Position numbers and translations under genes: made by a program. A model generated the notes under the pieces. It saw only the letters and a program-made list of their open reading frames with translations. It was not told the DNA's origin and did no database searches. DNA of 64,000 nucleotides from an uncultured Ilumatobacter sp. (GTDB taxonomy: Bacteria > Actinomycetota > Acidimicrobiia > Acidimicrobiales > Ilumatobacteraceae), in the NCBI GenBank assembly GCA_905480335.1, contig CAJQPY010000004.1:124001-188000 (forward strand). The letters are read 5' to 3'. Below are positions 48,731 through 48,880 of the stretch, piece by piece. The first letter of the stretch is position 1; every line of letters begins with the position of its first letter.

Positions 48731-48767
48731 AAAAAAGAAAGAACCCCCGGCCTGGCGGGCGGGGGTG
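48731..48767 (-). terminator. leuA attenuator terminator
   Basis: Minus strand ACCCCCG-cccgccaggc-CGGGGGT followed by TCTTTCTTTTTT, between leader ORF and leuA. Confidence 0.8.
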
Positions 48768-48768
48768 G

Positions 48769-48797
48769 GGGCGAACGCGGTGATGCGGCGTTCGCCC
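48769..48797 (-). promoter_or_regulatory. Attenuator hairpin immediately after the leader stop codon
   Basis: Perfect 10-bp stem GGGCGAACGC-cgcatcacc-GCGTTCGCCC. Confidence 0.75.
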
Positions 48798-48835
48798 TAC
48801 GTAAGCAGCAGCAAGCAAGTCGTAGAAGTTCGCAT
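48797..48835 (-). CDS. leuL: Leucine leader peptide [12 protein letters not shown]
   Basis: atg cga act tct acg act tgc ttg ctg ctg ctt acg tag: four consecutive Leu codons, then hairpin, terminator, leuA. Confidence 0.85.
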
Positions 48836-48880
48836 CTGGGCTCAGTGTACCAGATCCAGCTGGCGCCGGCCACGAGGCAC

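Follow-up and report, generated by a model that had tools for sequence, protein, structure and literature searches.

A candidate leaderless leucine attenuator upstream of leuA in an uncultured Ilumatobacter, built from two back-to-back hairpins

How might leucine control leuA, the gene for 2-isopropylmalate synthase, in an uncultured Ilumatobacter when the leader peptide is separated from the gene by two adjacent hairpins with no evident competition between them? The question arises from the minus strand of a 64,000-nucleotide stretch of DNA (the window), in which a first-pass annotation had proposed a leucine attenuator with an apparently leaderless leader peptide and had doubted that a mutually exclusive antiterminator could be recognised. 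The comparison of the locus with its relatives favours ribosome-mediated transcription attenuation of leuA through a leaderless leader peptide, a reading to which we assign a probability of roughly 60%.

The TACACT box, leader ORF, 10-bp hairpin, GC-rich hairpin and T-rich tail recognised in that annotation were each confirmed on the minus strand at the positions it had given. The locus comprises (i) the −10 box TACACT of the leuL-leuA promoter (48844–48849), of the extended type, with TG one base upstream; (ii) a predicted transcription start region (48835–48837) that, judged from the −10 spacing, would leave a 5′ UTR of 0–2 nt; (iii) the leader ORF leuL (48797–48835), separated from the box by 8 nt and encoding 12 residues plus a stop (ATG 48835–48833, TAG 48799–48797), with the codons ATG CGA ACT TCT ACG ACT TGC TTG CTG CTG CTT ACG TAG, including four Leu codons in a row, TTG CTG CTG CTT (48803–48814); (iv) a 10-bp hairpin, P1 (48769–48797), delineated by sequence and covariation and proposed as the switch element, in which GGGCGAACGC (48797–48788) pairs with GCGTTCGCCC (48778–48769), pairing beginning with the final nucleotide of the stop codon; (v) a 2-nt spacer (48767–48768), its spacing kept in relatives; (vi) the intrinsic terminator hairpin T, ACCCCCG...CGGGGGU (48743–48766), defined by folding and covariation; (vii) the U-tract TCTTTCTTTTTT (48731–48742), with up to 9 T per 10 nt immediately 3′ of the T stem; and (viii) leuA itself (46930–48672), identified by its NCBIfam match and encoding 580 aa, with its ATG at 48672 and a Shine-Dalgarno sequence, GGAG, at 48682–48679.

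The nearest named LeuA relatives belong to Ilumatobacter (I. nonamiensis, 89% identity) and other Ilumatobacteraceae, class Acidimicrobiia. The upstream regions of LeuA loci from 60 relatives were retrieved and read, and the layout of the window recurs upstream of leuA in 43 regions from order-level genomes. Two covariance models were searched, R1 being leucine-biased and R2 built mainly from non-leuA members: R1 matched in 169 of 296 class genomes (nearly half of the class genomes sampled thus have no R1 match) and in 47 of 398 phylum genomes, and R2 in 162 of 198 class genomes. A named set of 80 loci from another collection has many genomes in common with the first and serves as a cross-check short of full independence; R1 matched 77 of these loci, the three misses being contigs that start inside or just at leuA, so that leader, P1 and T lie upstream of leuA in 77/77 named relatives with upstream sequence. 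Of 68 distinct named relatives, 66 have at least three Leu codons in a row within the last seven leader codons; for random seven-codon stretches the figure is 0.3%. The arrangement of leader and hairpins thus exceeds chance.

Both hairpins covary. In a MAFFT alignment, two-sided compensatory changes are seen in 8 of 12 predicted pairs; in the alignment of 100 elements, which was fitted to the model and for which the MAFFT alignment provides a second basis, they are seen in all 12 modelled pairs, including all 8 modelled pairs of P1, and 97.8% of cells are paired, the shuffles giving 85.5% and the slid controls about 50%. P1 is present in 100/100 elements. The loss of the Leu-codon run and terminator in close relatives had been named beforehand as a possible refutation, and covariation across related genomes as a check; both features are kept, and P1 and T covary strongly on both sides. 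A simple consensus scan of the window locus detected neither promoter nor terminator, owing to a poor −35, a bulge in the terminator stem and an interrupted U-tract; the evidence from relatives carries more weight. No Rfam 15 family matches at gathering score, only sub-threshold chance matches being returned.

Several observations accompany the survey. A DEAD-box RNA helicase (Pfam DEAD and Helicase_C) is encoded divergently from leuA in the window (48919–50238, plus strand), and an upstream divergent ORF with a DEAD motif occurs in 37 of 63 named relatives having enough sequence; a DEAD-box protein is suspected as a regulator of the actinobacterial LEU element in Seliverstov 2005 (PMC1262725). 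Metagenome-assembled genome records titled Bifidobacterium breve (L200, L209) carry a 70%-identical LeuA with an Acidimicrobiia-type element and are probably mislabelled, and one relative (L034, G021:C78) has a second LeuA copy in a quite different sequence context and without the element, possibly through assembly contamination.

The start of the transcript can be judged from the spacing between the −10 box and the leader. When all in-frame ATG and GTG codons were scored as start candidates, TANNNT was found 6, 7 or 8 nt before an in-frame start in 8, 32 and 16 of the 100 elements, respectively (56/100), every other distance accounting for at most 5; out-of-frame starts show the motif at 6–8 nt in 0/100. 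The named set gives the same picture, with 58/68 in frame versus 0/68 out of frame. In addition, TTG[AC] −35 motifs cluster 17–19 bp upstream of TANNNT in 26 of 60 relatives with an exact box, and a Shine-Dalgarno-like motif precedes the leader start in 7 elements and is lacking in the other 93. Transcription is thus strongly predicted to begin at the leader start codon, which, lying at the 5′ end of the transcript with no Shine-Dalgarno sequence, would place this leader among the leaderless actinobacterial leader peptides. Initiation from a longer 5′ UTR, with transcription beginning upstream of the TACACT box, would fit the weak −35 of the window and the empty promoter scan, but is rendered very improbable by the sharply kept in-frame spacing, the −35 cluster and the rarity of Shine-Dalgarno-like motifs. 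The near-zero 5′ UTR had been called less usual; such leaders are in fact common in actinobacteria, several leaderless ones being reported in S. lividans (PMC8079986).

The same scaffold is found, through R1 and R2 matches, upstream of ilvB, leuS, cimA, leuB and a second leuA of an unrelated type, and the leader codons change with the gene. The leaders comprise (i) Leu codons ahead of leuA; (ii) Leu codons ahead of leuS, as in LLLT, LLLR and LLRM; (iii) Val, Leu and Ile codons ahead of ilvB, as in VLILM, VVLIV and VVVVLV; (iv) Ile codons ahead of the citramalate synthase gene cimA, as in IIIN, IIIP and IIIIL; and (v) Ile and Val codons ahead of leuB, as in VIIIE, VIIR and VIIIP. The use of Ile/Val rather than Leu codons in the leuB leaders (L251, L252, L255, L256, L258) perhaps reflects a further role of LeuB in making isoleucine by the citramalate route; at one leuB locus the next gene is, by sequence, branched-chain aminotransferase-like. 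The genome of the window itself carries a second copy upstream of ilvB (L239, contig C3, 182611–182690, minus strand), whose leader ends in LLVVLIW*. At three loci (L063, L076, L089) the same leucine attenuator precedes a TIGR00973-type leuA, which is not orthologous, and the switch appears to have been retained while the enzyme was exchanged; several leuA copies of the element lie in genomes whose only leuA found encodes the other protein type, and the switch would therefore track function and not gene lineage. Taken together, the sequences describe a modular family of putative amino-acid attenuators with codons that fit the pathway. One further model match (L270) lies upstream of an aminotransferase gene, its best NCBIfam match being below cut-off, with the leader VKLTRRSNK*; having no run of branched-chain codons, it is either a false match or of another specificity.

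The geometry of the two hairpins is equally constrained. In 72 of the 100 elements the first base of P1 is the final one of the stop codon, and in all of them it lies between −1 and +3 nt from there; both P1 and T are in the minimum-energy fold of every element. The spacer between them is 0–5 nt in 100/100 elements (0 in 62, 0–1 in 77), as well as in 68/68 named elements, partly from the same genomes, and 36/36 further elements. The distance from stop codon to T has a median of 28 nt and a range of 22–34 nt, the window showing 30 nt. When the ribosome is taken to mask 12 nt, counted from the A-site base, folding gives P1 a mean probability of 0.98 for an A-site five codons ahead of the stop, falling to 0.54 at a distance of two codons and to 0.004 on the stop codon itself; T keeps a probability of 0.91–0.94 whatever the ribosome position.

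Classical attenuation of the trp type comprises a leader rich in codons of the pathway and an intrinsic terminator between leader and gene, both found here, and hairpins that exclude each other through common bases, which are not found. Such a mutually exclusive antiterminator, conserved yet unrecognised, could take the form of a pseudoknot or of a brief overlap like that of C. glutamicum ilvBNC, where the antiterminator and terminator are adjacent and overlap in the trinucleotide GCC (PMC11857589). This is the best-known kind of attenuator, and the model for Mtb ilvB1 also has a stop-codon ribosome masking the antiterminator (PMC13236596). However, when the stems were extended outward maximally, P1 and T shared at least 1 nt in only 9/100 elements, at most 2 nt, and at least 3 nt in 0/100, which rules out an overlap created by extending P1 or T. 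Alternative duplexes were compared with shuffles and genome-swapped controls, the P1 and T stems serving as positive controls with overwhelming signal, and no conserved alternative pairing better than both controls was found among the 100 elements. Pairing of the leader with the P1 3′ arm lay slightly above shuffles (p = 0.013) and not above swaps; pairings of the leader with either arm of T, and of the downstream region with T, the P1 loop or the leader, were no better than the genome-swapped controls; and those between the two 5′ arms and between the two 3′ arms of P1 and T were weaker than in shuffles, which suggests avoidance of cross-pairing. The independence of T from the ribosome position points the same way, and a hidden classical antiterminator is accordingly considered unlikely. 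The earlier doubt on this point was well placed, none having emerged in 100 elements. Because the shared-base feature fails, the element is said to work like the classical trp type and is not filed under it. In the folding model, the state of P1 is set by the ribosome while T stays constant and no overlap joins them; P1 therefore cannot act on T through shared bases.

Two short motifs near the hairpins were also considered. The apical loop of P1 reads CGCATCACC in the window (48787–48779), and CATA is enriched in this loop, occurring in 36/100 elements, often as CACATA, versus 3.5 expected after shuffling; no pairing partner for it was found, and pairing with the codon before the stop was ruled out by eye, that codon varying while the loop is constant. 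CGGCC lies immediately 3′ of the U-tract (48730–48726, minus strand), and GGYC occurs 8–22 nt past T in 25/100 elements versus 6/100 in a control interval. These motifs could pair with the T loop or 3′ arm only after read-through; the pairing of GGCC with the T 3′ arm is unsupported over the set and would also be made too late in transcription.

How, then, might P1 act? In the mechanism that we propose, RNA polymerase would start at the leader ATG or 1–2 nt before it, and a ribosome would load on the 5′ end of the transcript and translate the 12-residue leader. When charged leucyl-tRNA is short, the ribosome would stall at the Leu codons with its leading edge not far past the stop codon, P1 would fold, and the folded hairpin, abutting the base of T, would block termination. 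When leucine is plentiful, a ribosome at the stop codon would cover the 5′ arm of P1 and hold P1 open, leaving the stretch of about 28 nt up to T single-stranded, so that T would form and terminate transcription. The direction of the effect follows from the expectation that biosynthetic genes are on in starvation, by which P1 must antagonise T. Since P1 and T can form side by side thermodynamically, the switch would hinge on a steric effect at the level of the polymerase.

Work on E. coli offers a physical basis, in that an obstacle near the first base of the terminator hairpin represses termination, a stop-codon ribosome blocks termination unless about 27–30 nt separate the stop from the terminator, and the last 2–3 bp of the terminator must close (PMC4824070). 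The median stop-to-T distance of 28 nt would put the stop-codon ribosome just far enough from T, while folded P1 would lie 0–5 nt from its base; P1 is therefore proposed as a steric antiterminator, a role for which the odds seem about even. Against it counts the finding that adjacent stable hairpins support, rather than block, termination in some settings (PMC8355165), and no precedent for a steric, non-overlapping antiterminator hairpin was found in the literature searched. P1 might instead be a mere pause hairpin, or an insulator that holds the ribosome off a constitutive terminator allowing low basal leuA expression; its position would suit a pause hairpin, and it spaces the stop about 28 nt from T, but the matching of Leu, Ile and Val codons to the gene would be left unexplained, and we regard this reading as quite improbable. 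The more general proposal, a widespread actinobacterial attenuator family in which an antiterminator hairpin without common bases abuts the base of T, physically keeps T from closing at the RNA exit channel and is opened by the stop-codon ribosome, is put forward tentatively, at slightly less than an even chance.

Among described systems, the first-pass annotation had taken leucine attenuation of leuA as established in Streptomyces and Corynebacterium, which overstates the case: the mutant data reported in Seliverstov 2005 are ambivalent (PMC1262725), and the leuA leader of S. lividans has no typical terminator (PMC8079986). The LEU element of actinobacterial leuA, and with it S. lividans leuL1, resembles the present element in its Leu-run leader ahead of leuA, which in S. 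lividans is leaderless; it is described as having no typical terminator and a proposed pseudoknot in which the Leu run pairs with the Shine-Dalgarno sequence (PMC1262725, PMC8079986). By analogy, leucine could control the translation of leuA here, the terminator being incidental, and a run of Leu codons, for example CUCCU, does complement AGGAG. This is hardly likely, given a conserved, covarying terminator with a U-rich tail, unlike LEU elements, and leader pairing with the 40 nt past T at the level of shuffles and swaps, no conserved pairing of the Leu run being found in that interval; the leuA Shine-Dalgarno sequence of the window lies beyond it.

The closest described relative of the proposed attenuator is the Streptomyces leuS attenuator, set beside it here by its text description; leuS attenuators are predicted in Streptomyces (PMC1262725). 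The S. lividans leuL2-leuS attenuator (MRAVRLLLSEPR; PMC8079986) likewise has a leaderless leader, as determined there by RNA-seq, Leu codons, a hairpin and a terminator with a U-stretch, but its ORF runs into P1, whereas in the clade of the window the ORF stops exactly at the start of P1 and the gene is leuA. The same peptide, MRAVRLLLSEPR*, was recovered with R2 as the leuS leader in three genomes of one genus (7–9 Mb), where P1 and T are 0–2 nt apart. The C. glutamicum ilvBNC attenuator and the ilvB-II motif (PMC11857589, PMC10272879) also combine a near-leaderless uORF, adjacent hairpins and a terminator; in their case the uORF extends across the first hairpin, 3 nt are common to antiterminator and terminator and a third hairpin is present, whereas the present element has two non-overlapping hairpins, a uORF upstream of P1 and no shared GCC. 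Finally, the mycobacterial leaderless polycysteine uORFs (Canestrari et al. 2020, via PMC13236596) are leaderless amino-acid-sensing leader peptides too; they act by translation attenuation according to PMC13236596, whereas here a terminator follows the leader.

Leaderless leaders and the Streptomyces leuS relative were thus already known, and the back-to-back hairpin architecture is new. The conservation, codon-gene matching, promoter-start distance and lack of a Shine-Dalgarno sequence support the leucine attenuator with a leaderless leader first suspected at this locus, which would extend leaderless amino-acid attenuation to the Acidimicrobiia, on which no attenuation paper was found in the literature searched. 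One modular scaffold appears to serve six or more kinds of branched-chain amino acid gene, namely leuA (two types), ilvB, leuS, cimA and leuB, and attenuation may do without the textbook competition of overlapping hairpins. The 0–5 nt spacer rule opens steric antitermination to a direct test in vitro; it would also help to find switches missed by standard searches for mutually exclusive structures.
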